Shown one piece after another: positions 23,925-46,454 of a DNA stretch of 47,141 nucleotides (positions within the stretch are counted from its first letter, which is position 1; the number at the start of each line of letters is the position of its first letter). Below the pieces are notes generated by a model, which saw only the letters and a program-made list of their open reading frames with translations, was not told the origin of the DNA and did not search any database. The stretch is from Actinomycetes bacterium (GTDB lineage Bacteria; Actinomycetota; Acidimicrobiia; Acidimicrobiales; JAJZXF01): NCBI GenBank assembly GCA_021791755.1, contig JAJYWA010000007.1, positions 1-47,141 on the forward strand, in the 5' to 3' direction. Both the position numbers and the translations under genes were made by a program.

Positions 23925-25109
23925 TCAGGGGCCGTCGAGGTTCTCGACGGCCTCGAGGAATAGCCCCTCAGGGCTCCGAAGCGCCTGCGGGGTCGCCCGT
24001 GCCAGGGATGAGCGTACGGTCGCATGGGGCTCTGTCTCCGCCAAGACCTCTTTGAGCGTCGCGACGAGCCTTCCCTGCAGCACGGATGCCCGGTCAACGC
24101 CGGTGCGGAACCTGCAAAGGACTGCAAAGGCGCCTGGGGCCACCCTCGCGATGTCGTCGTCGTGGCGAACGCAGCCTTCGAGTTGGGCTGCCGCAGCGCG
24201 CACGAGCTCGTCTGCCGATGCTGCCCCGTGCTCGCAGTCGGGCGTGTCGACGATCTCGAGGAGCAGGATGGCCAGCTCGTTCTCACCCTTCTCGATGGTG
24301 CCCAGGGCGTGTCCGAGCTTTGCAAGAAATACTGCGGCGCCGGGCAGCCCCGTCACGGGATCTGGGTCGAGCATCGCGGCCAAGGCATCGTGTGTCCGCG
24401 CTACCGGATCGTTGGATGTCCTGATGCCGGCAGCCGCAGCGTCGGGCGGCGCGCCCTGGGACGCGAGGATCTGCCTGGCAGCCTCCTCTGCGGCGGGATG
24501 GCGCCTGTCGACCAAGGGTCGTCCGGGTTGCCGGTGGTCCCTGAGCCACAACGCTGGGGCTGAGCCGAACACCTCTTCGCGAGCTTTCATGTGAGCCGAG
24601 AGACGCATCGCAAGCCCGTTGAGGGCATCCAGCTGGTCTTCGTCGAAGTAGCCGGTTGCCGGGTTGACGACGCACAGAAGCCCCCGTACCTCGTCGGAAA
24701 TTCCCCGGTCGATGACGGCCGCCGCCGCTATGGTCACGCGATGGCCGCCGTTGAACGCTGATGTGGCGTCTCGCTCGTCCATCTGGGCTCCACCGCTCGG
24801 CTCTACTTCGCCGCGCCCTGTGCCGTCATCTGCGTCATCATCGATGAGCGCTGGCGCAACGAGGACCTTTCCCCCCTCGAGGCCCGGGTCTTCCCAGACG
24901 CCGTAGGCCATCTTGCATAGAACCTCGGGCGTCCAGGACGCGTGCTCAGGGAAGGTGGAGGTGAGCCGCAAGGCACCGTCCGCGTGCCGCAAGGCGAGGA
25001 ACGCGACGTCGGCGGCGCACAGGTCCCATGCGGTCCGGAGAAGGTTGGTGGCGGTTCCTCCGCTGGACTGGCTCATCACTTCGGTGAGACTAGCGGCCCG
25101 CCGTCCCAT
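23925..25109 (-). CDS. GAF-like plus degenerate GGDEF-domain protein
   Basis: GGDEF-like fold motifs DPDPVTGLPGAAVFLAKLGHAL...ELAILLLEIVD...ADELVRAAAAQLEGCVRHDDDIARVAPGAFAVLCRF, with APGAF in the GGDEF position. Confidence 0.72.
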   Translation of the reverse strand: MGRRAASLTEVMSQSSGGTATNLLRTAWDLCAADVAFLALRHADGALRLTSTFPEHASWTPEVLCKMAYGVWEDPGLEGGKVLVAPALIDDDADDGTGRGEVEPSGGAQMDERDATSAFNGGHRVTIAAAAVIDRGISDEVRGLLCVVNPATGYFDEDQLDALNGLAMRLSAHMKAREEVFGSAPALWLRDHRQPGRPLVDRRHPAAEEAARQILASQGAPPDAAAAGIRTSNDPVARTHDALAAMLDPDPVTGLPGAAVFLAKLGHALGTIEKGENELAILLLEIVDTPDCEHGAASADELVRAAAAQLEGCVRHDDDIARVAPGAFAVLCRFRTGVDRASVLQGRLVATLKEVLAETEPHATVRSSLARATPQALRSPEGLFLEAVENLDGP

Positions 25110-25197
25110 GGGCGTACGGTTGCCGTACCTGCCGCACAGGCGCTGCGCGACTCACATCCTGCGAGCCGCTCCCGGGCGAGCCTATGATGGCGCCGTT

Positions 25198-25716
25198 GTG
25201 GACGCCACCCGGGCGGTATCAGCCGCAGTTGTGACCGTTGCCGGAAATGAGCTGATCGACTCGTGCCGGATGCGCTTCGATCCATCGGCGGCTCGCGGGA
25301 TGCCTGCGCACATTACGGTTCTCTACCCGTTTGCCAGCGTCGAAGAGCTGCGCGGGGACGTGGTTAGCGCCTTGGAGGACGTCTGTGCGCGCACCAAGCC
25401 CTTCGACTTCGAGCTGGTAGATCTCGGGTCTTTCCCAGGCGTCCTCTACCTCGTGCCGGAGCCGCAGGGGAAGTTCGTCGATCTTGTAGAGTCCCTGTCT
25501 CGTGCGCTGCCGGCCTGGCCACCGTACTCTGGCGCATATGCCGAGGTGGTCCCGCACCTTACGATCGCGCAGCGCCGCAGGGTTCCACGGCGGGCTCGCA
25601 GGCAGCTCTCCGCTGGGCTGCCTTTGGCATGCCGGGCGTCTTTTCTTGATGTGCTGGTCGAAGAGGATGCTGGATGGCGGACACTTCGTCGGTTCGAGCT
25701 GGGCGCTGGGGAGTAG
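25198..25716 (+). CDS. 2H phosphoesterase / 2'-5' RNA ligase family protein
   Basis: Paired motifs AHITVLYPF and PHLTIAQRR; GTG start at 25198. Confidence 0.75.
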   Translation: MDATRAVSAAVVTVAGNELIDSCRMRFDPSAARGMPAHITVLYPFASVEELRGDVVSALEDVCARTKPFDFELVDLGSFPGVLYLVPEPQGKFVDLVESLSRALPAWPPYSGAYAEVVPHLTIAQRRRVPRRARRQLSAGLPLACRASFLDVLVEEDAGWRTLRRFELGAGE

Positions 25717-25760: not shown

Positions 25761-26897
25761 TCAATGCAGGCGGGAGGCCCCTTGCTCCTCTGATCTCAGC
25801 GTGCTGCGGAGCGCTGCGGCAGAGAGCGGGAACGCCCCTGAGGTGATAGCCCAGGTTCCGTAGTCCCAGATCACGCCGTAGGCGACGGAGTGGGAAGCCA
25901 TCCACCTCAGCAGGTGTGTAACGAAGTAAGCATCATCGCTTCCCGCTGGACTGTCTCCCTGGGGAGCGAGGCCCCACTTCTCGATGGCGAGAGGCTTGGA
26001 GTGCAAGCTCGCGAACTCGGCGAACCAGTCGAGCCCGTAGCTCACGTTGACGAGCAGAGCCCAACGCTGCTGAGGAGTCACGGGGGTCAATGATGGAGGG
26101 GCCTGGCCCGGACTCGCGCCGGTGGTGAGCTCTTGCTCGAGGACGTCGGTGGCGATGATGTCGACGTAGGAGCTCCCTGGATAGATTGCGTTGGGGCCGA
26201 TCCCCGTCGATGTCTGGGCGGAATCCCATACGAACTGGAACCTTGCTCCCGGAACGGCGCGCATGGTGGAGACTATGTGGCGCCAGTACGCTACGTACCA
26301 GCTTGCCTCTGCAGGCGTGGTCGCGGACCACGGCAGGCCTGGTAGGTCCGCATCCCAGCCGAGCACCAAGAGAGCGTTGGACTGGTTGCTCTGGACCAGC
26401 AGTTGAGCCAACTTCGCGAAGTACCCGTCGTACGTACCGGCTGCGCCAGCTGCAAGGGTCGCTCCCGAGCCAGGCAGCATGGGGACTCCCCAGATCCGCG
26501 TGAAGCCGGAACCGGCCCACCTGCCGAGGGTCCACGTGGGTTGCGTGATACTGCTCCAGGTCGCGTTGGAGAAGAAGTCCATCGCGTAGCGAACCGGCAG
26601 CCCCAGATAGTCCTGGAAGGCATACGCGCCTGCGACGTTTCCCGGCCCGGCATAAACTCCGACACCGACACCATCTGCAATACCCCAGCCAGGCGGTTGG
26701 AGCGGAACGTGGCGTGTCACTCGTGGCTTGCCCAGAGCGCTCCCCGGCACTGAACCGGCCAGGGGAGCGCTCTTGACCGGGTGATGACCACGCGGCCCCG
26801 CAGCCCGGTCGGTCTCGAGGACGGCGAGAGCGGCTGCGAGGACCGCTATGGCAACCGCTATGGCTGGGATGCGCAGTCGCGAGCGCGTGCTATTCAA
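25761..26897 (-). CDS. Secreted GH26-like (beta-mannanase-type) protein
   Basis: N-terminal TM/signal; ALLVLGWDADLPGLPWS, YVAYWRHIVSTMRAVPGARFQFVWD, YPGSSYVDIIATDVL, SKPLAIEKWGLAP. Confidence 0.6.
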   Translation of the reverse strand: MNSTRSRLRIPAIAVAIAVLAAALAVLETDRAAGPRGHHPVKSAPLAGSVPGSALGKPRVTRHVPLQPPGWGIADGVGVGVYAGPGNVAGAYAFQDYLGLPVRYAMDFFSNATWSSITQPTWTLGRWAGSGFTRIWGVPMLPGSGATLAAGAAGTYDGYFAKLAQLLVQSNQSNALLVLGWDADLPGLPWSATTPAEASWYVAYWRHIVSTMRAVPGARFQFVWDSAQTSTGIGPNAIYPGSSYVDIIATDVLEQELTTGASPGQAPPSLTPVTPQQRWALLVNVSYGLDWFAEFASLHSKPLAIEKWGLAPQGDSPAGSDDAYFVTHLLRWMASHSVAYGVIWDYGTWAITSGAFPLSAAALRSTLRSEEQGASRLH

Positions 26898-29800
26898 CTG
26901 GGCGGACCCCCGTCATGAGATGGTCCTTTCCTGGGGTCCTCGAGCCGTCGAAGACGCGCCGAGCCATCTGGAGCGCCGTCTTCGAAGCTTCGGCGATGAT
27001 GACGCGCGAACGTCTGTTAGTGAGGGGCAGTGGGAGCAGGACGAGCAGGAACAGGCGAGCAGGCCACGGGGCTAGGTCGAAGAATAGAGCTGGCAGGAGC
27101 GCGAGCATCCATGTGAGCGCTGGGCCCACGGTTGCAAAGGTGAGGTGCAGCGTCTTTCGGAGGGACATGAACGGCACCGCGCCGACCAGGACGCCGGCGA
27201 GCGGCGCCAGGCCTGCTGAGACCAGCCCGAGGCGTGGGATCACCAGGATGGCAACTGCTGCAGTGACCGGGAGGGCGATGGTCTCTGCCACGGCGAACCG
27301 GATGGGTGAGCGGGTGACCAGGAACGTCGCGGCAGCTACCACGAACAGCGCTTCGCAGAGCGCTGCAGCCGACATAGCCGGGAGCACCCTGAAAACCGAC
27401 TTCCAACTCGGTCCGAAGACCGTGCCGACAAGGATCGGAGAGGCGATGGTGACCGCGGCAAGTGGCAGGCCAAGCGTAGCGACCTCGAGAACGGTCCCAT
27501 CAGCGAGCCCAGCGGCAAGGTGCTCGGCGTTGTCTTTCACCCGTGAGAGTCCTGCGAGCGCGACGCGCCATGTGGACCGCACGCCGATCGACAGCATGTC
27601 GATGATCCGCCACGAGAGGGCGAGCCAACCGACTGCAGCCGCGCCCAGGTCGGCTCCGATGACGAGCGCGAGGATGGCGCGGGCGGCGCGCGGCCTCCAG
27701 ATGGACACAGAGGCTGGTATCCCGAACCGAAGCATATTTGCCGCATCACTTCTTGACCAGGCGAGCCTCGGCCACCTGCCCGCAAGACGGTAGCTGCCCG
27801 CAAACCGGACGGCCTGCCAGGTAAGGGTGCCAGCGACTGGCGCCCAGTCTCCCGCTCCGAGCAAGGCGAGTGGCAGCGCGACGGCGTACAGGGCGCTGTC
27901 GGCCACTACCTCTACGATCGCGAGCTGCTTGAAGCCGAAGGAGCGTTCGATGCGGGCTTGAGCAGGGGCCCAGAGGACGTTCAGCGGAAGGCCGATGAGC
28001 AGGACCCTCAGCAAGGGGGCGATATTGTCATGCCCGAAGAGGCCAGCTGCCAAGTACGTGCCGAGCATTAGCGCCGCCGCCATGAAGGCTGTCGTCATGC
28101 AGAGGAGCGTGAACGCTGTGTCGAAGAGGTGGTCCTGTGGGTCAGGGTGCCTTATGAGGTAGATCTCGGCGCCGACCTGAGCCACGGTGGCGCCCAGGGT
28201 GACGACGGCCGCTGCCGCCGCGTAACGGCCGAAGGCGCTGGGTCCTATGAGCCTGGTGAGGGCGAGGACCCCGCCTAGGCGGATTGCGCCGCCGATCCCC
28301 TCCCTCAACATCAGGTACGCGCCGCCCTCGATGCCCTTCGTGCGCAAACGCCGTGCCGGGTTGTCGCCTTCTTGACCAGCTGTCGCGGCTGGTGGACCCG
28401 GTGGCGGCGCAGGTGGGTTCTGGATCGACGAGAGCAGCTCGAGGTCCATCAGGTCCACGTCACGCAATGTGTAGCCGGCATGGGCCGCGATCTGGGTGCC
28501 TATAGACAGGCACTCGACCTGCGTGCCGCCGATGTGTCCTGTCGCGAGCAGATCCTGGTCGTGTGACTCGAGAGAGCTCGTGGTCGGCTGGCGCGCCTGG
28601 AGATCCCCACTGCGGGCAGGTGGAGCAGGTGCGGCATCCCCACTGCGGGCAGGTGGAGCAGGGAAGCTATAGCCGGGGACCAAAGCCGGGTGGATGTCGA
28701 CCCTCCGACCGAGCGCATCTTCGAGCAGGAGACGGTGCGGGAACAGCGCCGATTGGACCACATGCTCTTCGCGCACGAAGAACCCGTGATCGCAGAGGAT
28801 GTCTCGTGCGTTGCAAGCTTCCTGCATGCCAGCCTCGCCTGTCTCGGGATTGGTCACCACGATATCCAGATCGCGGTGACGGCGGGTCTTCGTTCCCAAT
28901 AGCGCGTCTATTCCCCAACCCCCGCCGATGATTGCAGGAACTCCCTCCCGGCGAAGCAGGCTGACAATGCGCATGACGTCGCGAGTGCTCGCTCCGAGAA
29001 GGCGCCGGCGCAGCCTTCCGAGCGATGCAGCGCTCAGGCGAACAGCGGCTGCTCTCGCGGCGTGAAGGGGGTTCCTTCCCTGGTAGTCGACCGCGTCCAG
29101 CGACGGCGGTGTCGGGCTGGGTTCGAGGTGATCGGGGTTTTCAAGCGCCATCGCTGGCGCTATCCCCGACGACGTCTCGTGCAGCATCCCCGATGACGCC
29201 TCGGAGGAAGCCCCCGACAACGCATGGCGCGACCATATGGTGCTCGGCAGCAGCGATTTCTCCGGCTCTGGTTGCCGCCGAGCGACCAGAACGCCACCGA
29301 ACGTCGCGCTCGCAGGCGCCAGCAGGCCGAAAAGCGCCCAGAGCGCCTGCGGCAACCCGCCGTTGCTCACGTATGGCCAGATCGCGTCCATGGGTATCAG
29401 CACCACTGATAGGACCACGAGCGCTCGCCCGAGCGCGACCTCCATGGGATCCGAGCTGCGTGCCGCCTTTCGCGCCCGATCGATCATTGCCCAGCTCATC
29501 GCACCGAAGAGCACGAGCACTATGATGCCGCCCTCCATGAGAAGCGTTATGTACTGTGACTCGGTGTACTGCCAATCGACGTTGCCTGGGAGGCTGATCC
29601 CGTACCCGGTGAGTGGTTTGGCTGCTATAGCTGGGACGTACTCGGTTGTCCAGACCTGCCACCGGAACGCGATCGTCTGGGGTACGCCCACACTTCGTGA
29701 GCTGCCTGCCGTCGTGCCGAACTCGGTCACCATACGTTGGCCGAGGTAGGAGCCGAACGCGATGATCACAACCAGCGTGCCGACCCCAAGCCAGGTGAGC

Positions 29801-30927
29801 ACCCGCTTTGAACGGCGTGCCCAAACACCGAGGATCACGGCTCCGGCGAGCAACCCGCCCATCGCGGATATCTCAGCGGTGAGCATAAGGGCCGACATCG
29901 ACAGGGCCGTCACCACCTTCATGGTCCGGGGCCTGTCGCGGAAGGTGTAAAGCAGTGCAAAGGAGCACAAAGGTATGAGGACTACCGTCAGGTAACCCGC
30001 CAGCGCTGTCCACTGGTCGAACGGACCGGTGGCCCTCATGAAGACGTGGTACGCCGAGGATCCGAGCACCGTGCTGCCGGTGAGCTTCACGATCAACGAG
30101 TCGATGGCGTGCAGCCGGGACTGTTGCGCTATCGCCAGAAGAGATACCGGGATGCTCGCTATGAGGAAGGCGATCAGGGCGTTCCTGCGTTCTTTTCGTG
30201 ATCTAAGAGATACCCGCACGCCTCGGTAGATGAGAAAGAACTGAAGCTGGCCAATGGCGGTTCCCCAGTTGGAAATGGTCAAGTGCTCATGCAGCAAGAC
30301 TGCATTGATGCCGGCCATCGCCGCCCAGCCGACCCCGTAGATGAAGAGCAGCCAGTCCAGAGCCGCCCAACGAACGGCATCCTTGCGCCGCGTGGCGACG
30401 AGCACCGTTACCCCCACCGCGCCGATCAGCGCCTCGGAGAGACGTATGTGGGGGACTGGGACTCCAGGTTGGAACCCCGACACTATGGGAACGATCGCAA
30501 CCAGTATGTAGCCGCCAAGAGCAGGACGCACGAGGACCATGGTCACTACGGCGAGCCCGCCGACAGCTGCGATCGCCAGCTTGATGTCGTACACGGCCGC
30601 GATGCCGATGCCCAGCCCGCCGAAGATGGCCGCCATAGCAAGCAGCACGTCGCGTGGCGCTGAGGTGAGCCAGCTCTGTGCTGTCGTCGTCGAGTCCTCG
30701 CCGACGGTGTGTGCGAGCGTCGTAGTCCTGGCTGTGACCAGTGCTACGGGCTGGATGCCCGCCGGTGTGCCTCCGTCGTCGGGTTTGCCGGCGTGCCGGC
30801 GTTCATGAGCGCCGTCGCCGGGACGGCCGGGATGGCCGGGCTGGCCGGGATGCGCACATTCTCCGGCTTCGAGACCTTCGAGCACCCGCGACCGCGCACC
30901 GGGAGCGAGGGCGGCTGGGCCTGCCAA
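26890..30927 (-). CDS. Predicted three-module fusion: O-antigen ligase/Wzy-like + LnuA-like nucleotidyltransferase + Wzx-like flippase
   Basis: Single 1345-aa frame. N-term polytopic ligase/polymerase-like; middle IIGGGWGIDALLGTKTRRHRDLDIVVTN...VDIHPALVPGY...VECLSIGTQIAAHAGYTLRDVDLMDLELL; C-term GGVLALTRLIGPSAFGRYAAAAAVV...FGIPASVSIW. Confidence 0.8.
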   Translation of the reverse strand: MAGPAALAPGARSRVLEGLEAGECAHPGQPGHPGRPGDGAHERRHAGKPDDGGTPAGIQPVALVTARTTTLAHTVGEDSTTTAQSWLTSAPRDVLLAMAAIFGGLGIGIAAVYDIKLAIAAVGGLAVVTMVLVRPALGGYILVAIVPIVSGFQPGVPVPHIRLSEALIGAVGVTVLVATRRKDAVRWAALDWLLFIYGVGWAAMAGINAVLLHEHLTISNWGTAIGQLQFFLIYRGVRVSLRSRKERRNALIAFLIASIPVSLLAIAQQSRLHAIDSLIVKLTGSTVLGSSAYHVFMRATGPFDQWTALAGYLTVVLIPLCSFALLYTFRDRPRTMKVVTALSMSALMLTAEISAMGGLLAGAVILGVWARRSKRVLTWLGVGTLVVIIAFGSYLGQRMVTEFGTTAGSSRSVGVPQTIAFRWQVWTTEYVPAIAAKPLTGYGISLPGNVDWQYTESQYITLLMEGGIIVLVLFGAMSWAMIDRARKAARSSDPMEVALGRALVVLSVVLIPMDAIWPYVSNGGLPQALWALFGLLAPASATFGGVLVARRQPEPEKSLLPSTIWSRHALSGASSEASSGMLHETSSGIAPAMALENPDHLEPSPTPPSLDAVDYQGRNPLHAARAAAVRLSAASLGRLRRRLLGASTRDVMRIVSLLRREGVPAIIGGGWGIDALLGTKTRRHRDLDIVVTNPETGEAGMQEACNARDILCDHGFFVREEHVVQSALFPHRLLLEDALGRRVDIHPALVPGYSFPAPPARSGDAAPAPPARSGDLQARQPTTSSLESHDQDLLATGHIGGTQVECLSIGTQIAAHAGYTLRDVDLMDLELLSSIQNPPAPPPGPPAATAGQEGDNPARRLRTKGIEGGAYLMLREGIGGAIRLGGVLALTRLIGPSAFGRYAAAAAVVTLGATVAQVGAEIYLIRHPDPQDHLFDTAFTLLCMTTAFMAAALMLGTYLAAGLFGHDNIAPLLRVLLIGLPLNVLWAPAQARIERSFGFKQLAIVEVVADSALYAVALPLALLGAGDWAPVAGTLTWQAVRFAGSYRLAGRWPRLAWSRSDAANMLRFGIPASVSIWRPRAARAILALVIGADLGAAAVGWLALSWRIIDMLSIGVRSTWRVALAGLSRVKDNAEHLAAGLADGTVLEVATLGLPLAAVTIASPILVGTVFGPSWKSVFRVLPAMSAAALCEALFVVAAATFLVTRSPIRFAVAETIALPVTAAVAILVIPRLGLVSAGLAPLAGVLVGAVPFMSLRKTLHLTFATVGPALTWMLALLPALFFDLAPWPARLFLLVLLPLPLTNRRSRVIIAEASKTALQMARRVFDGSRTPGKDHLMTGVRPVE
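28603..28662. repeat. 33-bp-period in-frame duplication within the nucleotidyltransferase segment
   Basis: atccccactgcgggcaggtggagcagg at 28603 and 28636 (encodes APPARSGD twice). Confidence 0.95.
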
Positions 30928-30930
30928 GGT

Positions 30931-33096
<2,166 letters not shown>

Positions 33097-33110: not shown

Positions 33111-34976
33111 CTAGTCTTCATAGTTCTTCATCCGCATGGTCTTCATCTGGTACAGCTCACGGTCAGCGCGCACGAGCACCGAGGTGGCATCGTCGGTACG
33201 TCCGTCGGCGATCACCGACCCAAGGGTGACGAGGACGCTGATGGTCTGGTTGCGGACCTGATAAGGGTCGGACAGGACGGTTCGAACCCTCCGCATGACC
33301 GCGTCGAGCTCCGCTGGGTCAGGTGACGAGGAGTAGGCAACTGCAGCGAATTCGTCACCTCCGAGCCTCGCTACAGTGTCGCTTGGCCTGAGGACCCCTT
33401 CAAGGCGCCGCGCGACAGCGGTGAGCACTTCGTCGCCGATGTCGTGCCCGTATGTGTCGTTCACGAGCTTGAGACCGTCCAGGTCGCAGAAGAGCAGGCT
33501 TGCCCTTCCGCCTTCCCTGCGGGAGCGCACGAGTGCTCGGGTCAGGTGGTCCAGCAGGAGCGAGCGGTTTGCAACGCCGGTGAGCGGATCATAGAGGGCG
33601 AGCCTGGTCAGCCAGGCCTCGTGCTCTCGCTGTGGCGACGAATCGTGAAGGAGCAGAAGTGCTCCAAGTCCAGCGCCCCCGATCTCCAAGGGCTGGGCCG
33701 AGGCGGTTATCCAGCGTGGTCCGCCCTTTTCTCGGGGGAGTTGTAGCTGCTCGCTTCGGACGGTTGCTCCGCCGAGGGCCCGTGTCAGCGGGTGCTCGGC
33801 GGAGTTGATCCGCGTGCCGTCCGATGAGAGCAAGGAAATGTTCTGCGGGAAGGGACGTCCGAGGAGCTCCGAGTTCGGGGGGAGCCCCTGGAGCGCCAGC
33901 GCCGACGGGTTGGCCAGCAGCACGGTTCCGTGGCTGTCGCATGCGATGAGCCCGTCCTCGAGGGCATCGATGACGGAGTGGGCGGTGTGAAGCTCGTCGA
34001 CGTTCTGAGATGTTCCCCGGGGCCCTTCGGACCGCTCAGACCCCTCGGCCACGATGCGCAGGCTTGCCACGAAGCACTTTCCCAGGTGGCTGCTCTGCAA
34101 CTCTGCTCCGCAGATGTCCACCTGCACATCTGCACGTTCGCCGCGGAACATCTTTACCCGACGTCCCGGTGGAGGCTGCCCAACGATCATCTTCACCAGC
34201 TCCCGGGCTGTGTGGCCTTCAGCGAAGACGGGATCGAACGGGTCTATGAGGTCTGCTATCTCTCTACCGAGGATGTTCGCCGCACCGTCGTTGCCCAGCA
34301 CCGATGAGATGGTCTCGCTCGCATATAGCACTGTGCCGTCTTCCCGAGCCACGAGCACCGGGTCGGGCACGTGTCCGACCACCTCTTCGAGGAAGGTGCC
34401 GGCGCGTGCAGGTGCGAGGATTGGCTTGTCCTGCTGGCCCGGGGCGTTATGCTCGCCCGGCTCATGGCGCTCGCCCGGCTCATGGCGCTCGCCCGGCTGA
34501 CGCGGCCACACGGTTGTCTCGGTCGCGGACCGGCGGGTGTAAGCGAGCCTGCTCGCCAGCCGACTTGCTATCCTCGAGAGTCCGAAGCGGAGCTCGTCAT
34601 CGATGCTGATGGGCGCCGTGTCGACGATTCCAAGCAGGCCAATGTGCTCCGTTTCGCCGCTAGCAGGATCGCGAACGGGCACCACTTTGCAGAGCATGCG
34701 CGTGACGCCTGGGCGCTCCGTGCTTGCGGGCTCGAACCCCGTGAACATCTCAGCGCCGAAGGCATCGGGATGCGCCAGGCAGCTCCGCGCGAGAGCGCTG
34801 ACACGGTCTCGGGTCTCGGGTCGCGCTCCCTCGGGGGGGAGCGCGACGGTCACGTCGCCATCAGGTGTTACGAGGAAGCAGGCCAGAGCCGCGCAGAGGT
34901 CCCGTGCAAGCTGGAGAAGCTCAACAGAAGGCTCATCAAGCGCGAGCTGTTGGTCGGGACTGTTGGGATTCGTCAT
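33111..34976 (-). CDS. GAF/PAS-containing diguanylate cyclase (intact GGDEF)
   Basis: YDPLTGVANRSLLLDHLTRAL, LLFCDLDGLKLVNDTYGHDIGDEVLTAVARRLEGVLRPSDTVARLGGDEFAAVAYS; two PAS-like segments upstream. Confidence 0.93.
   Translation of the reverse strand: MTNPNSPDQQLALDEPSVELLQLARDLCAALACFLVTPDGDVTVALPPEGARPETRDRVSALARSCLAHPDAFGAEMFTGFEPASTERPGVTRMLCKVVPVRDPASGETEHIGLLGIVDTAPISIDDELRFGLSRIASRLASRLAYTRRSATETTVWPRQPGERHEPGERHEPGEHNAPGQQDKPILAPARAGTFLEEVVGHVPDPVLVAREDGTVLYASETISSVLGNDGAANILGREIADLIDPFDPVFAEGHTARELVKMIVGQPPPGRRVKMFRGERADVQVDICGAELQSSHLGKCFVASLRIVAEGSERSEGPRGTSQNVDELHTAHSVIDALEDGLIACDSHGTVLLANPSALALQGLPPNSELLGRPFPQNISLLSSDGTRINSAEHPLTRALGGATVRSEQLQLPREKGGPRWITASAQPLEIGGAGLGALLLLHDSSPQREHEAWLTRLALYDPLTGVANRSLLLDHLTRALVRSRREGGRASLLFCDLDGLKLVNDTYGHDIGDEVLTAVARRLEGVLRPSDTVARLGGDEFAAVAYSSSPDPAELDAVMRRVRTVLSDPYQVRNQTISVLVTLGSVIADGRTDDATSVLVRADRELYQMKTMRMKNYED
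34451..34500. repeat. 18-bp tandem repeat, about 2.8 copies, in the GGDEF gene linker
   Basis: gctcgcccggctcatggc at 34451, 34469 and 34487 (partial); encodes (PGERHE)n. Confidence 0.95.
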
Positions 34977-35334: not shown

Positions 35335-36906
35335 TTGCCTACGGGGCACCCCTTGGGCTCGGACGCTCCCATGCACGTGTCGAGTGTTACGCTAGTCGAT
35401 GGAGGCGCCGCTGGCCGGTCCGATTTTTCGGCCGACGCAGGTCGTGCGATCGGAGTCCGTTATGCGGATCGAGCCCGGCCCCACCGCTTGCGGGCGTGGC
35501 AGGTCATCGCCGTTGCGGACGCGATTGTCATCGCGTGTGTCGTGGCGATAGCGGCAGCGTTGTCCCTCAGCGGGGCCGCGACGAACCGCCGGGGTTCTCC
35601 GGTTCCACTGGTGATCGTGGTGACATGGCTTTGCTTTCTGACCGGCATATGGCTCAAGCGCCTTTACGCGCTGCCGCGCAAGCGGCTCGTACCTGCCGGC
35701 GCCGAGGACGTTCCTGCGATCATCGAGGCGCTAGCCGGTGGAGTGCTGGTCGCATTGGCGATCGAGTGGGTGTTTGGAGCAGGCCGCGGGCCGCGACCGG
35801 TGCTCTCTGTTGGCGGGCTGGTGATCGCGGCGGCAGCCTGTGCGGTTGCGCTGCCTCTGGTGCGAACGGCGACTGTGAGCCTGCTTGCGAGGTTTGGAGT
35901 CGCAACTGTGAGGGTCGTGATCGTGGGCACCGGAACGGTAGCCAACGACGTCGCTGGGCGGCTGCTTCGCAGCGCGTCATTGGAGCTGGTCGGCTTCGTC
36001 GACGACGATCCTGACGGGAGCCATGTGGTCCTTGGCGGGCTGCGCGACCTGCAACGGGTATGCAAGCGTTACGGCATCGACCGCGTCATCGTCGCCTTCT
36101 CACGCGCCCATCCGGAGAACACGGTCACGAGCCTCAGGGCGCTCGCCGGCTCTGTGCCGCTGACCGTGGTCCCCAGGTACTTCGAGCTTACGAGCTGGCA
36201 GGCTCAAGTCGACGACTTGAGCGGGATGCCTGTCGTGAGCCTCGACGGTGGTACGGCAAGCCTGACCGCCAAGTCCCTGAAGCGTCTAATGGACATAGTC
36301 ATCTCGCTGGTGAGCCTGACGGTGCTGCTTCCCTTTCTTGCGATCGCAGCGCTGATGGTCAAGTTGACGTCGGAGGGACCGGTGGCGCTCCGTCAGGTGA
36401 GGCTGGGCCGGGACGAGCGACCGTTCACGATGTTGAAGCTAAGGAGCATGACATGGACAGACCCGGTTGGGAGCCGCAAGGATGCGCCGGGAACGCTCGA
36501 TCCGGGAGCTGAGCGCCGTGGCGCGCCTGGATCGAACGAGGCTGACCCTCGGATCACCAGCGTTGGACGTGTGCTCCGCAGGAGCGGGATCGACGAGCTT
36601 CTCCAGCTCTGGAATGTATTGCGGGGAGACATGTCTCTCGTCGGGCCCAGGCCCTTCGTTCCCGAGGAGTGCTCCCGTATGGTGAGCTGGGAGCGTAGGC
36701 GCTTCGAGATGCGCCCGGGGATGACAGGGCTCTGGCAGGTATCAGGTCAGCACGATCTGCGATTCGAAGAGCTGTGCCGTTTGGACTACCTCTACGTGGC
36801 TTCCTGGACCATGCATGCCGATCTTCGCATACTCATGAAGACGCCGCGCCGGCTTCTGTGCGGCGCCGGAGGCTCGAGGCGATCTCATGAGAGCTGTGAT
36901 CTCTAG
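35335..36906 (+). CDS. Polyprenyl-phosphate glycosyl-1-phosphate transferase (WbaP/WcaJ-like)
   Basis: RLMDIVISLVSLTVLLPFLAIAALMVKLTSEGPVALRQVRLGRDERPFTMLKLRSM...GRVLRRSGIDELLQLWNVLRGDMSLVGPRPFVPEE...MRPGMTGLWQVSG. Start may be ATG 35371. Confidence 0.93.
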   Translation: MPTGHPLGSDAPMHVSSVTLVDGGAAGRSDFSADAGRAIGVRYADRARPHRLRAWQVIAVADAIVIACVVAIAAALSLSGAATNRRGSPVPLVIVVTWLCFLTGIWLKRLYALPRKRLVPAGAEDVPAIIEALAGGVLVALAIEWVFGAGRGPRPVLSVGGLVIAAAACAVALPLVRTATVSLLARFGVATVRVVIVGTGTVANDVAGRLLRSASLELVGFVDDDPDGSHVVLGGLRDLQRVCKRYGIDRVIVAFSRAHPENTVTSLRALAGSVPLTVVPRYFELTSWQAQVDDLSGMPVVSLDGGTASLTAKSLKRLMDIVISLVSLTVLLPFLAIAALMVKLTSEGPVALRQVRLGRDERPFTMLKLRSMTWTDPVGSRKDAPGTLDPGAERRGAPGSNEADPRITSVGRVLRRSGIDELLQLWNVLRGDMSLVGPRPFVPEECSRMVSWERRRFEMRPGMTGLWQVSGQHDLRFEELCRLDYLYVASWTMHADLRILMKTPRRLLCGAGGSRRSHESCDL

Positions 36907-36928: not shown

Positions 36929-37963
36929 TTACGAAGTGGGGCGCGCAGGTCTGGAGCCGGCATCGCGGATCCAGGCGCGGAGCGCTTCCTCCTGGGCGTT
37001 CCAGCGTGCGAGCTGTGTCTCCTTGGCCGGCATCGCGCGTGCGAGGAGCGATCGGCGGTCGCCTGTAGCCGACCGGACCGCCCTCGCGATGTCTTCGGCG
37101 TTGTTCTCGACGTGAAGCGCATGAGGGAAGAGCTCTCGGCCGGCTGGCCAGTCGGAGATGATGAGCGGCTTACCCGCATAGGTGGCCTCATAGGCTGCAC
37201 GCATGACGGAGGTCGGCTCCGTCGTGAGAGCGGCGACGAGGTCGGCGTCAGCCAGAGCACGCTGGTATGCTCCAGAATGGAGGAAGCCCGTGAAGTGGAC
37301 ATTGGCCGGGGCATGCTCGCGCAGCGCTGCGGGGCAGTCCAGGATGCGCCCCGTCACGTAGAAGTCGCACTCCGGTACGGCGCTAGCGGCAGCAATCAAC
37401 GCCTCGACCGGCTCGTCCGGCGCAAAACGACCCACGTAGAAAAGCCGTGGCCGCGTTCTCTCGGAGCTCTCGGGAGGCTGGGGAGGCTGGGCTGGGCTCC
37501 AGGAGCCGGGAGCCTCGTGGACGATCAGCGGGTGACCGCCCCAGCTCTCGACGATGTCGCACCAGTGCTCCGTAGTCACGAGCGTGATCCCGCACCGCCG
37601 TACCAGCCAGCGATGCAAGGGGAGGAGACGGGCGGATACCCGGTCTTCCTGGGCGCCGAACGACCCCGGATGGCTGTCAAGGCCGACCGTGGAGCCAGTG
37701 AGCTTGCTGCAGACATAGACGACAAGCCCTGCGAAGACGGGGGGATTGGTGACGATCACAGCCTCGGGGCGTCTGGAGATCATGAACGCAACAGTCCGCG
37801 CTGCGCTGAGGACGTACCTGATGAGGACGTGGGGACGCTTCGGGTTGCCCGCAGGGTAATAGCATTTCGCTTCGCCACCCAGCGCTGCGGCGATCTCCCC
37901 GGAACGTCCGCTGATCGCGCCCCAGGAGATGAAGGCGAAGGAGGTGCGGGAAGCCTTGACCAC
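36929..37963 (-). CDS. Glycosyltransferase (GT-B, GT4-like)
   Basis: RPEAVIVTNPPVFAGLVVYVCSKLTGSTVGLDSHPGSFG; RPRLFYVGRFAPDEPVEALIAAASAVPECDFYVTGRI; ADLVAALTTEPTSVMRAAYEATYAGKPLIISDWPAGRELF. Start uncertain (37999 or GTG 37963). Confidence 0.82.
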   Translation of the reverse strand: MVKASRTSFAFISWGAISGRSGEIAAALGGEAKCYYPAGNPKRPHVLIRYVLSAARTVAFMISRRPEAVIVTNPPVFAGLVVYVCSKLTGSTVGLDSHPGSFGAQEDRVSARLLPLHRWLVRRCGITLVTTEHWCDIVESWGGHPLIVHEAPGSWSPAQPPQPPESSERTRPRLFYVGRFAPDEPVEALIAAASAVPECDFYVTGRILDCPAALREHAPANVHFTGFLHSGAYQRALADADLVAALTTEPTSVMRAAYEATYAGKPLIISDWPAGRELFPHALHVENNAEDIARAVRSATGDRRSLLARAMPAKETQLARWNAQEEALRAWIRDAGSRPARPTS

Positions 37964-38954
37964 AGGTGACCTACCTGGGGTGTCCGTCATCGCTGCCACC
38001 TATAACCGCAGGAACCTCCTCGTGCCTTTTGTCGACGCAGTTCTTTCTGATCCTGCGGCCACGGAGCTCATAGTGGTTGTGGACGGTTGCGACGACGGCT
38101 CGATCGAGATGCTGGAGCAGAGAGCAACGGTAGAGCCGCGTCTCAAGCCGCTCATGGTGTCGCACCGTGGGCACCTGGCCTGTCTCCAAGCTGGAGTCGC
38201 GATCGCAAGATCGAGCGTGGTGCTGTTGCTCGATGACGACGTGCTCGCCGACGAAGGGCTTGTCTCTCGTCACGCTGCGCTGCACGCAGGTGCGAAAGAC
38301 CGCGTCGTGATGGGGTACATGCCGGTGAGGGTGGCGCGCAGACGCCGCCATGGCCAGGTTGGCACGTATGTTTACGCTGACGAGTACGAGATGCACTGCT
38401 CGAGGATCAGCCGAGGCGAGCTCCCGGTGCTCGAAGGGCTTTGGGCCGGGAACATCTCGATGCCGCGGGCATCCTGTCTGGCCGTAGGCCTGCAGTCGGC
38501 GGAGTTCGCTCATTTCTACCATTCGGACAGGGATCTTGGTCTTCGACTCCAATCTGGAGGCCTCGAGGGAGCGCTCGACCTGTCCCTCACCGCGTCGCAT
38601 ATTCATGAGCGGTCCACTTTATCGTTCCTGCGGGACGCACTTTCGCAAGGGGAGGGTCTAGCCCTGCTGCACGAGGTGCACGCGGCGAGCCTCGGACCGC
38701 TCGACATCAGCCAGTTCTACGCAGACCTTCCTTGCATGACGCGGCGTCTGGTGCTGTACCTTGCCGGCTCGAAGCACTGCTGGCGCGCGTGCCGCCTGAT
38801 TGGAGCGCTCTCGGGTCTGTTCGGAAGGTTGCACTGGTTCGGGGTCGAGACTGCGGTCGCAAAGCTCGCGAGGCGTGCCCTGCTGCTTCACGCGACAATG
38901 TTCCGCGTGGAGGCGCCATCTGCAGAGCGCTCTTCGGAGAGCCGCGCCAGGTAG
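37956..38954 (+). CDS. Glycosyltransferase family 2
   Basis: VSVIAATYNRRNLLVPFVDAVL...ELIVVVDGCDDGSIEML...VLLLDDDVLADEGLVSRHAAL. TTG 37956 follows a GGAGG ribosome site. Confidence 0.9.
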   Translation: MTTGDLPGVSVIAATYNRRNLLVPFVDAVLSDPAATELIVVVDGCDDGSIEMLEQRATVEPRLKPLMVSHRGHLACLQAGVAIARSSVVLLLDDDVLADEGLVSRHAALHAGAKDRVVMGYMPVRVARRRRHGQVGTYVYADEYEMHCSRISRGELPVLEGLWAGNISMPRASCLAVGLQSAEFAHFYHSDRDLGLRLQSGGLEGALDLSLTASHIHERSTLSFLRDALSQGEGLALLHEVHAASLGPLDISQFYADLPCMTRRLVLYLAGSKHCWRACRLIGALSGLFGRLHWFGVETAVAKLARRALLLHATMFRVEAPSAERSSESRAR

Positions 38955-42635: not shown

Positions 42636-45600
42636 TCAGGAGCTTTCGATCTTCGACCTGTACTCGTTCAGCGCGCCTGACGGTGGGACGCCAAGCTCGA
42701 GCATGGCCCGCTCTGCGCGTGCGAGCGCGGACATTGCGCGGCGCCGGTTTCCGTTGTCGGCGTGCAGGCGCGCTGCGAGGAGGTAGTGGTGCTCTTCGTA
42801 CGGGTCGATGTCGATGAGGTGCTCGAGCATCCCGAGCGCCTCGGCAGTGCGGCCCTGTTGAATTGCATCGTTGACCAGCAAGTCCATGAGGTGCAGGTGC
42901 AGCTGCGCGAGTGATTCCCTCGCAGCGGCGGCCCAGTCTGCATATCGGTCGCCAGGCAAGAGCTCGCCGCCATACCACGAGAGCGCCTCGGCAGCCAGTG
43001 TCACGGCGTCGGCGGGTGACGCTTGGCGGGAAAGGGCCCTGTCTGCCAGCGAGCGAAATGCCGTGATGTCTACCTCTGCCTCGGGGGATATCCTGATGAA
43101 GGCGCCGTCGCGTGCGAGCAGGTCGCCGCAGGCCGCTCGGACCCTGAAGAGCACGTTGCGCAGGCGCCGGGTACCGACTCCAGGTCCAGCATCCGGCCAT
43201 AGAATCTCGACGAGCTCGTCTACCAGGAGGCGCTGGCGGATCGCGATGACCTTGATCGCCTGCGCCGGGAGGCTTGGAGGCAAGGTTACCTCGATTCCTC
43301 GGTAGCGAAGCGAGAAGCTGCCGAGCATGACAATCTGCCACGCGGGCGGGCGTCCCGCGTCGGCGCGCCGGTGATGGTTCCGCAGGACATCGGGAAGGCC
43401 GATGGTGGCGGCATCTCGAGGTAGAGCAGCCTTGTGGCTGGCGCCACGCAGCGGCGATCCTGTCTCGCCTGTCTCGCCTGTCTCGTCAGTATCCGCTCTC
43501 AGTTCAAGAGCGATCTGTCGCGGCATTGGCGTGCGAGGTTCTCCGGTCCCGGTCTCGCGGCCAGAGATCAGACGATCCCTGCCGCGGGAGCTCGACTGCG
43601 CCCCGCGGGACGTGCTCCGGAGCGCTTCGACCTCTTCAAGCGCCCTTCCAGCCCAGCCGCGTGCTCCGAGCGATGCGAACGAGCTACGGGCAGTTTCCAG
43701 GTGTTCCTCCGCATCTGGCAGCTGACCGGCCTGCGACAGGACCTGTCCCCATCTGAGCTCTGTCCGGGCAGCGAGAAGCGGCATCGATGGCGCGCTCGCA
43801 AGAGCCCTGGAAAATGACTCGGATGCCTCGGCGGCGTCCGTAGAGAGCATACCGAGAAGGTAGGCGCGCCGGCGCTGTTCCAACGAAGTCGCTTCCAGCC
43901 AAGTCGCTGGTGCACCTGTGACGCAGCCAGGAGATTGTGCAGCAGAGCCACTCGCGAGGAGGTCTCTCGCCAGGTTGTCCCGCCCCGAGAGCGCAAGAGC
44001 TTCGATGAGCGGCGGCGCCCAGATGTGATCGAATGCCCCGTTGTCAACGTGGCGGGGACCAGGTGTCATGGCGCCCAAAGACGCGGCCTCATGGCGGGAC
44101 GCGCTCAGCCAGGCGATCGCAGCCTCCGAGTCTCCCCTCTGCAGCTCTAGCTCACCCAGGGCTGCCAGTGCTCGGACGCGAGCAGCGTTGGCAACGCCAG
44201 CGGGGATGGCGAGGACCCGTGTCGCGTGTTCGAAGCACCGGTCGCGTAGACCCAGCGCGGCTTCGAGCTCAACCTGTAGCCCGAGGGAATGCGCGGTCAA
44301 GGTGTCCTGGCCGCATGTCTCGGCATGCCTGCCGGCAGCTTCGCAGACGGCGAGTGCGTCGTCTACGTAGCCTTGCTGGAATGCAACTGAGGATCGAACT
44401 ATCAATGCCGCGGCGAGCAGTGGGCGATCGCGAGCGGTGTGGGCGCACCGCTCGGTCCAGGATGCCCAGCGTGCGGCCTGATCCTGCAGCACCTCCTCAA
44501 GCAGGCCGAGGCCGATGGCCAGCGCCAGCTGCGCTGACCCGGCAAAGCCTTGGGTGTGGCTCATGACAAGAGATGTCGTCTCCGTGAGCGAGGGCGCGGC
44601 GCCGGATGTCACAGTTGGAACAGGGTCGCGACCATTGCTGCCGTCCTCGTTGGTGGAATGGAGCCTAGCGTTCCTGGCACGGGCCAGATCGAGCACCGCC
44701 CCTGCAAGCGCTTCGAAGTGGCTGCTCACCGACCCCGCAAGGTCTATCGCGAACTGAGCGCTCTCAGCTGCCTCGTTGTAGCGGCCCGCCAGGAGGTCGC
44801 AGGCTGTGGAGTCGGCGAGCATCATCACGGCGCGGTGTGGCGCTGTGTGGCTGCATGCTCGCCCTGCAGCTAGCAGCTCTGCGGCAACGTCTGGCCCGCC
44901 ATCGGTGGCCAGCCGAGCTCTTGCCCGCCAGTACCGAACGTCTGCTCGGGTGGTGTCCGAGATCGCCCTGAGGAGTGCTCGGTCGAGACAGCCGATGGCT
45001 CGTTCATGCTGGCCCTCTTGAGTCCAGATACGCGCGGCTACGGCCAGGTGGTGGGCGGCTCCATCTGCTTCGACAGCGAAGTCCGAGGCCATCTCTTCGT
45101 TGACCGCAGCGGTAGTCGGATCGTCGCGGCTCAGAGCGATGTGCGAAGCCTGCGTAAGCAACCTTGCCACCCTCCCGCTCTTGCCTGACGTCCCGGCTGC
45201 AGCGTGAACCACCGTGCGCTCGACATCTCCTCTGGCTGAGAAGGCACGGGCGAGGGCCTCGTGCGCACTCCGGCGTAGCTCTTCGCCAGCGAGCTGGAAC
45301 GCCGCAGCCCCGACCAGCGGGTGGTCGAAGTGGACGCGTCCGTTCCTCATGGCGATGACGCCGGCCTGTCGTGCAGGCTCTATGAGCTCCTCTAGCATCT
45401 CGGGTGAGTCTGTTACCAGGTGGTCTACTGCGGTCTCGGCGACGCCAAGCGGCAGTTCGGGGCTTGCAGCTACGATGCACAACGCATTCCGTGTTGCTTC
45501 CGGGAGGCTTGTAAGACACCGTCCGAACATCGTTGCAAGTGAGGAGCCGATTCGCAGAGGCGCGGGCAAGGGTCGCCACCCTCCGAGCTCGTCGTCACTG

Positions 45601-46454
45601 AGACGCGCGCAGGAATCGATCGTTCCATAGGGGTTGCCGAGCGTCTGGTCGACGATCGAAGTCAGTACTTGTCGTGCGGGAGGCACTGCGCCGTGGCTTT
45701 GGAGTAGAGATCGAGCCTGCTCCAAGCTCAGCCCTGCCAGGTGGCGTTCGTCGAGTCCGGCTAGCTCAGGAGCCGCGATCTGTACGTAGGGGATGTCAGA
45801 CCATGCAAGCACCGCCGCGACCGGCTCCTCGCGAATTTGCAGGGAAGCTTCGACCAGAGCCCGAAGGAGCTGTTCTGGAAGCCACTGAACGTCGTCTACT
45901 GCTACGAGGACAGGTGACGACGTCGACACAGCAGCTCTACGGAAGAGCTCCAGCAGCAGCATTGCCAGCGATGCCGGCCCCGCGTGAGCCCCTCTGCGAC
46001 CTCTGCGTTCGTGTTGCGCCAGCCCGTCCGCGTTTCGCCCGGTGAACAGATCGTGCGGTAGCGCCTCATCATCGAGTCGGAAGCGGGCGTCGTGCATGAA
46101 GGGATCCAGGATCCTCCGTAGCTGAACATCAGGATCGGCGCCAGGGTCGTCCACGCCTCGGAGCCTTACAATGTTCATGTCAGGAGCCATGGTCACAGCC
46201 GACTCGAGCAAGGCCGTCTTCCCGGTGCCCGGCTCTCCCCTCAGCACCATGGCGCCGCCTTTCCCAGATCGCGCCGAGCGAACAAGACCGGCGATGTCTT
46301 CGAGCTCGTGGTCGCGCCCGACAAGACCCGTGCTTGAAGTCTGGCCCTCGCCGTCGTACCAGCTATTGGCCTTTCTTGCACCGTAGCTGGAGACGCCTGA
46401 CGACATACGACCTGGGGTCATATTGCCCGGCCAGGGATCAATTTTCCTCATCAC
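42636..46454 (-). CDS. Large ATPase/TPR regulator with C-terminal wHTH-BTAD (SARP-like) domain
   Basis: Walker A GEPGTGKTALL; VLVAVDDVQWLP; TPR-like middle; C-term MLGSFSLRYRGIEVTLPPSLPAQAIKVIAIRQRLLVDELVEILWPDAGPGVGTRRLRNVLFRVRAACG and BTAD sequence to the end. Confidence 0.88.
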   Translation of the reverse strand: MMRKIDPWPGNMTPGRMSSGVSSYGARKANSWYDGEGQTSSTGLVGRDHELEDIAGLVRSARSGKGGAMVLRGEPGTGKTALLESAVTMAPDMNIVRLRGVDDPGADPDVQLRRILDPFMHDARFRLDDEALPHDLFTGRNADGLAQHERRGRRGAHAGPASLAMLLLELFRRAAVSTSSPVLVAVDDVQWLPEQLLRALVEASLQIREEPVAAVLAWSDIPYVQIAAPELAGLDERHLAGLSLEQARSLLQSHGAVPPARQVLTSIVDQTLGNPYGTIDSCARLSDDELGGWRPLPAPLRIGSSLATMFGRCLTSLPEATRNALCIVAASPELPLGVAETAVDHLVTDSPEMLEELIEPARQAGVIAMRNGRVHFDHPLVGAAAFQLAGEELRRSAHEALARAFSARGDVERTVVHAAAGTSGKSGRVARLLTQASHIALSRDDPTTAAVNEEMASDFAVEADGAAHHLAVAARIWTQEGQHERAIGCLDRALLRAISDTTRADVRYWRARARLATDGGPDVAAELLAAGRACSHTAPHRAVMMLADSTACDLLAGRYNEAAESAQFAIDLAGSVSSHFEALAGAVLDLARARNARLHSTNEDGSNGRDPVPTVTSGAAPSLTETTSLVMSHTQGFAGSAQLALAIGLGLLEEVLQDQAARWASWTERCAHTARDRPLLAAALIVRSSVAFQQGYVDDALAVCEAAGRHAETCGQDTLTAHSLGLQVELEAALGLRDRCFEHATRVLAIPAGVANAARVRALAALGELELQRGDSEAAIAWLSASRHEAASLGAMTPGPRHVDNGAFDHIWAPPLIEALALSGRDNLARDLLASGSAAQSPGCVTGAPATWLEATSLEQRRRAYLLGMLSTDAAEASESFSRALASAPSMPLLAARTELRWGQVLSQAGQLPDAEEHLETARSSFASLGARGWAGRALEEVEALRSTSRGAQSSSRGRDRLISGRETGTGEPRTPMPRQIALELRADTDETGETGETGSPLRGASHKAALPRDAATIGLPDVLRNHHRRADAGRPPAWQIVMLGSFSLRYRGIEVTLPPSLPAQAIKVIAIRQRLLVDELVEILWPDAGPGVGTRRLRNVLFRVRAACGDLLARDGAFIRISPEAEVDITAFRSLADRALSRQASPADAVTLAAEALSWYGGELLPGDRYADWAAAARESLAQLHLHLMDLLVNDAIQQGRTAEALGMLEHLIDIDPYEEHHYLLAARLHADNGNRRRAMSALARAERAMLELGVPPSGALNEYRSKIESS
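43460..43486. repeat. 9-bp tandem repeat (ctgtctcgc-type) x3 in the regulator linker
   Basis: ctgtctcgc ctgtctcgc ctgtctcgt; encodes (ETG)n. Confidence 0.9.

Follow-up and report, generated by a model that had tools for sequence, protein, structure and literature searches.

A Wzy-nucleotidyltransferase-Wzx fusion in a glycan locus, and the pairing of its nucleotidyltransferase with 2H phosphoesterases

The window, by which we mean the whole stretch of 47,141 nucleotides analysed here, carries on its minus strand one gene that joins a Wzy-like module, a nucleotidyltransferase (NT) module and a Wzx-like flippase module. This fusion is genuine, conserved but rare, and lies inside a known pathway. 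In this order, NT genes occur paired with a gene for a 2H phosphoesterase; this statistically strong pairing probably gives the odd middle domain of the fusion a job. The fusion frame runs from a TTG at 30927 to a stop at 26890 and is open for 1345 codons, bearing out the single uninterrupted minus-strand frame described in the initial annotation; the stop of a polysaccharide-copolymerase-like gene immediately precedes the TTG, with AAGGG upstream of the TTG. The features discussed below are as follows.

25198..25716 (+): 2H (LigT-type) phosphoesterase; PF13563, 7.6e-24; motifs AHITV and PHLTI
25761..26897 (-): GH26-like protein; PF02156, 4.3e-4, at the cut-off; start overlaps the stop of the fusion
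26890..30927 (-): whole fused gene, Wzy-like + nucleotidyltransferase + Wzx-like; 1345 aa, TTG start
26998..28353 (-): Wzx-like MOP flippase module, residues 859-1310; PF13440, 4.1e-42
28354..28401 (-): linker 2, residues 843-858; variable
28402..29040 (-): NT module, residues 630-842; PF10706
29041..29247 (-): linker 1, residues 561-629; variable; in frame and open in both species of the genus
29248..30684 (-): Wzy/O-antigen-ligase-like module, residues 82-560; PF04932; ~13 TM segments by hydropathy
30931..33096 (-): polysaccharide-copolymerase-like gene; two TM segments; assigned by inspection, no Pfam match above cut-off
33111..34976 (-): PAS-GGDEF diguanylate cyclase; RLGGDEF intact; upstream of the fusion, same direction
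35335..36906 (+): initiating polyprenyl-phosphate sugar-phosphate transferase; TIGR03025 over cut-off
37929..38954 (+): GT2 glycosyltransferase (EpsD-like); Pfam and NCBIfam

Pfam profiles recovered the three domains in the order first described, each above its curated gathering score: Wzy_C (PF04932) at fusion residues 340-474 (E 1.2e-9), a match that does not separate polymerase from ligase since PF04932 also covers O-antigen ligases; PF10706 at residues 651-830 (E 1.1e-20); and Polysacc_synt_3 (PF13440) at residues 890-1178 (E 4.1e-42). The flippase module also matched Polysacc_synt (PF01943, E 3.2e-11), the two flippase profiles together spanning residues 868-1178. LicD (PF04991) was absent among the Pfam matches of the fusion, and the LicD profile had no match in the genome of the window or among six genomes searched. 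No PDB sequence match was found for the Wzy module. Its hydropathy profile has a 68-residue loop before the third-last TM segment and a basic loop at residues 483-501; a simple hydropathy count with the positive-inside rule puts the predicted C-terminus of Wzy in the cytosol, and this would place the NT there as well.

We compared the fusion with the corresponding gene of G001, the one further representative of its genus and family among the compared genomes. G001 has the same three-domain order in one frame of 1291 aa that is 72-74% identical to the fusion overall (Wzy 83%, NT 62%, Wzx 81%), with both linkers open. The linkers differ in length between the two species and about half of third codon positions differ, yet the frame is kept. 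Because the matching three-domain frame of G001 is likewise free of stops, a chance open run or an assembly slip is excluded, as is the missed frameshift that the initial annotation had named as a risk. Internal initiation at the ATG that had been placed at 28975 was also rejected. That codon is at 28974-28972 and encodes Met652; it has no Shine-Dalgarno sequence, lies within sequence alignable across three species (the two of the genus and G043, described below), and does not correspond to a start-like Met in the sister species, where Asn follows Val. Other candidate internal starts likewise have no good Shine-Dalgarno sequence and do not match between species. The earlier idea of a single polypeptide for glycan export and polymerisation stands insofar as both members of the genus have one polypeptide frame, surrounded by a full Wzx/Wzy-type locus.

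The locus contains a MOP-superfamily flippase, a Wzy-type polymerase and an initiating transferase, and, as in other Wzx/Wzy-dependent assembly systems, these are found together with a copolymerase-like gene and glycosyltransferases; unlike in those systems, a single polypeptide holds both Wzy and Wzx, separated by an NTase domain. The copolymerase-like gene is directly upstream of Wzy in all three genomes. Its product is V4R-like over an N-terminal stretch (E 0.3), and its C-terminus resembles a decayed BY-kinase domain, neither being confirmed by a database match. Candidate catalytic Glu positions of the GH26-like protein (FVWD/FEWD, IEKWG/IAKWG) are by inspection not kept between relatives, so this protein may be a non-catalytic glycan binder. 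Two further genes adjoin the locus or lie at its edge: one for a GAF-GGDEF protein (23925-25109, minus strand) with RVAPGAF replacing GG[DE]EF, a degenerate diguanylate cyclase, and one for a 1272-aa AAA-TPR-BTAD regulator (42636-46454, minus strand).

The proposed search for the same three-domain architecture found it in the second member of the genus and in that genus only; a relative from another family of the order, G043, splits Wzy off. In G043, Wzy (47% identical to the Wzy module of the window) is encoded by a separate gene that ends ...GCGCGCATGA and overlaps the next frame by ATGA, at the position occupied by linker 1 in the window. The downstream G043 frame carries an NT, a flippase and a GH26-like domain, the last being the counterpart of the separate GH26-like protein of the window. 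The gene order PCP-Wzy-NT-Wzx-GH26 is thus common to the genus and the G043 lineage, with NT and Wzx fused in both; the outer joins differ, because Wzy is fused in the genus and the GH26-like protein in G043. Since G043 has a separate Wzy and a fused NT-flippase, the NT-flippase is probably the older unit, to which Wzy would have been joined only in this genus. Beyond these three, a search of the order (397 genomes) and of the phylum (397 genomes) gave no further NT-flippase fusion, and a Wzy relative at 1e-10 was present in only 6 of 298 order genomes. We found no report of Wzx-Wzy or NT-flippase fusions in the literature searched. Another genome of the order, G042, has a 1423-aa open frame (L050:4847-9115, minus strand) with a MurJ-like flippase at residues 128-550, a Wzy-like stretch at 755-918 and a sugar-phosphate transferase at 1227-1418; this flippase-Wzy-initiating-transferase frame is a candidate for an independent fusion.

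The NT module retains the motifs GGGWGIDALLG, RRHRDLD and RRVDIHP, with key residues G668-G670/W671, H684, D686, D688 and D744. The hG[GS] motif (GGW), the [DE]x[DE] motif (D686/D688) and the third acid (D744) of the NTase fold are all present by alignment, in agreement with the motif first described; in G043 the third acid is Glu. D686, D688 and D744 align with Asp44, Asp46 and Asp86 of ANT(2'')-Ia and with Asp362, Asp364 and Asp416 of FKRP, which has an NTase fold; the roles of the aspartates in both enzymes have been described (PMC6965139). The earlier label "LnuA-like" holds for fold and motif: LnuA is the best PDB sequence match of the NT and its best Foldseek fold match, and the window NT shares with LnuA and ANT(2'')-Ia (PF10706) the hG[GS] and DxD motifs and a C-terminal CLS..Q..H.GY..R..D.DL motif. 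The fold match comes from a low-confidence model and was used weakly, the structure models being poor (pLDDT 43 for the NT with 2 sequences; pLDDT 31 for a 1200-residue model). The label does not extend to membership of the resistance families. NCBIfam Lnu and ANT(2'') models scored 24-36 bits on the fusion against cut-offs of 300-350, so the NT does not qualify as any named resistance enzyme, and in the tree the fused NTs make up a separate clade (97/94, support that covers this clade but not its deeper placement) that does not group with Lnu/ANT(2'') enzymes. We rejected resistance-gene identity on these scores and the tree. The window NT further differs from LnuA and ANT(2'')-Ia in a proline-rich loop insertion, in its fusion to membrane proteins and in having a 2H partner. 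Between the window and G001, the NT diverges faster than its flanks (62% versus 81-83% identity); branch lengths in the tree hinted that the NT of the window itself evolves faster, but a relative-rate test did not support this. A variable NT loop (window residues ~757-776) contains a PPARSGD repeat in the window and, in G043 (L049), an extended tract of GAV repeats; within the domain, this predicted loop is a site at which tandem repeats grow.

The 2H partner of the NT had been missed in the initial annotation, as had NTs of the same type beside flippases in relatives. The 2H gene of the window has a probable GTG start within the ORF 24913-25716 and is convergent to the fusion, ~3 kb from the NT; it occupies the same place in G001 and G043. 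Its product resembles LigT/YjcG-type 2H phosphoesterases in having both a PF13563 match and two HxT/S motifs, and its nearest solved structure is BSU11850 of B. subtilis. Unlike those enzymes, the 2H proteins of this order are paired with PF10706 NTs, twice in one frame. An NT and a PF13563 gene were found within 3.5 kb of each other in 10 of 50 PF10706-bearing order genomes, from seven families, and within 200 bp in 7 of these ten. By contrast, ~0.13 such genomes would be expected by chance, a rough figure that assumes a mean genome size of 3.6 Mb and is to be read with the non-independence of related genomes in mind. In G253 (L128:5699-6904, minus strand), NT and 2H form one 401-aa protein with motifs intact; in G396 (L156:1998-3182, plus strand), a 394-aa NT-2H frame has lost the DxD motif of the NT but keeps the two HxT motifs of its 2H part. 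For NTs sampled from outside the order, elsewhere in the phylum, no 2H gene was found within 1.5 kb, and we found no report of NT-2H pairing in the literature searched.

Several standalone NTs of the order have glycan genes as neighbours. G289 and G354 have the order flippase-GT2-NT with a convergent 2H gene, a flippase and an NT are neighbours in G244, and in G253 the NT-2H gene is followed by a flippase. The G396 locus has NT-2H, LicD and an NTP_transf_3-aminotransferase (PntC-like) protein, followed by a flippase, a GT4 and two further NTs; PntC-type cytidylyltransferases accompanied by LicD-like phosphotransferases are a signature of loci for the tailoring of cell-surface glycans (PMC6697681). 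The NT-2H pairs of G011, G392 and G376 adjoin genes unrelated to glycans. The position of relatives' NTs beside flippases, together with the presence of a phosphodiester-cleaving enzyme, suggests that the NT decorates a sugar building block before export.

The mechanism we favour, to which we give slightly less than even confidence, is that of one multi-domain membrane protein in which the NT decorates a lipid-linked repeat unit that is then flipped and polymerised, and which the 2H phosphoesterase trims. In the chemistry that we infer for the two enzymes, the NT would act at the cytosolic face, where it would modify a sugar hydroxyl of the lipid-linked repeat unit with a nucleotidyl (NMP) group or, alternatively, as LicD and FKRP do, with a phospho-substituent from a nucleotide donor. 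The flippase module would then move the decorated unit across the membrane, the tethered Wzy would polymerise it outside, and the 2H phosphoesterase would trim or remove the phosphodiester, as processing or proofreading. Consistent with decoration are the frame, the kept gene order, the ATGA coupling in G043, the conserved catalytic residues, the cytosolic TM count, the NT-2H pairing, the location of the NT beside a flippase and/or a glycosyltransferase in G289, G354, G244, G253 and G396, and the co-occurrence of LicD and a PntC-like protein in the G396 locus. Against it we count the NT-2H pairs off glycan loci, the Glu third acid in G043, the faster NT divergence and the poor models. A precedent exists in pneumococcal teichoic acid synthesis, where decoration by LicD is followed by the gatekeeper MOP flippase TacF and then by the Wzy-like polymerase TarP (PMC13385700). 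The sequence we propose for the window is alike in placing decoration by an NTase-superfamily enzyme before a MOP flippase and a Wzy-like polymerase; it is unlike in that LicD, TacF and TarP are separate proteins, and in that the window NT, whose glycan substrate is putative, lies outside PF04991.

A near-neutral merger of genes that lie tightly packed in an operon, with Wzy, NT and Wzx keeping separate jobs and gaining no added coupling, is possible, though we consider it unlikely. It would fit joins that differ by lineage, genes that already overlapped, as in G043, and a three-way fusion confined to one genus; it fits less well with a frame that, in two diverged species, has stayed open across both fast-evolving linkers and with NT-Wzx fusion in two families, and it concerns the joining, not the NT's own activity. 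For that activity, a regulatory role seems improbable: the NT would nucleotidylate a Wzy/Wzx domain or a partner protein and the 2H enzyme would reverse this, forming an on/off switch for export, possibly with the c-di-GMP enzymes of the locus. The writer/eraser-like pairing, the two GGDEF-type proteins in the locus and the GGDEF-EAL gene that adjoins NT-2H in G376 are in keeping with such a switch, but PF10706 relatives of known function act on small-molecule sugar hydroxyls, and standalone relatives adjoin glycosyltransferases and flippases without GGDEF genes.

Since characterised 2H enzymes cleave 2',3'-cyclic or 2'-5' phosphodiesters, and since in G392 the pair is flanked by a lysyl-type tRNA synthetase on one side and a polyprenyl synthetase on the other, we also considered that RNA is the target of NT and 2H, or that the two synthesise and degrade a nucleotide messenger, with the glycan link being secondary. 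With the NT fused to a flippase in three genomes and adjoining flippases or glycosyltransferases in five more, this is very improbable. We give almost no credence to chance capture of an antibiotic-resistance domain: membership of the same Pfam family and LnuA as the closest solved structure speak for it, but scores of 24-36 bits against cut-offs of at least 300, the separate NT clade and the glycan context speak against it.

Returning to decoration of the repeat unit, we put forward, only tentatively and as something we doubt more than we believe, that NT and 2H are an undescribed writer/processor pair for phosphodiester-linked nucleotide or phosphate on lipid-linked repeat units, with the writer built into a single decorate-flip-polymerise protein that would couple the three steps. 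Little is understood so far of how Wzx, Wzy and the enzymes that decorate repeat units are coupled; in a single-chain Wzy-NTase-Wzx the stoichiometry would be fixed at 1:1:1, and such a protein would offer a direct handle on the coupling. Annotation pipelines tend to call such enzymes drug resistance or RNA ligase, and the NT/2H pairing offers a testable lead to a phosphodiester modification of bacterial surface glycans that has gone unrecognised.
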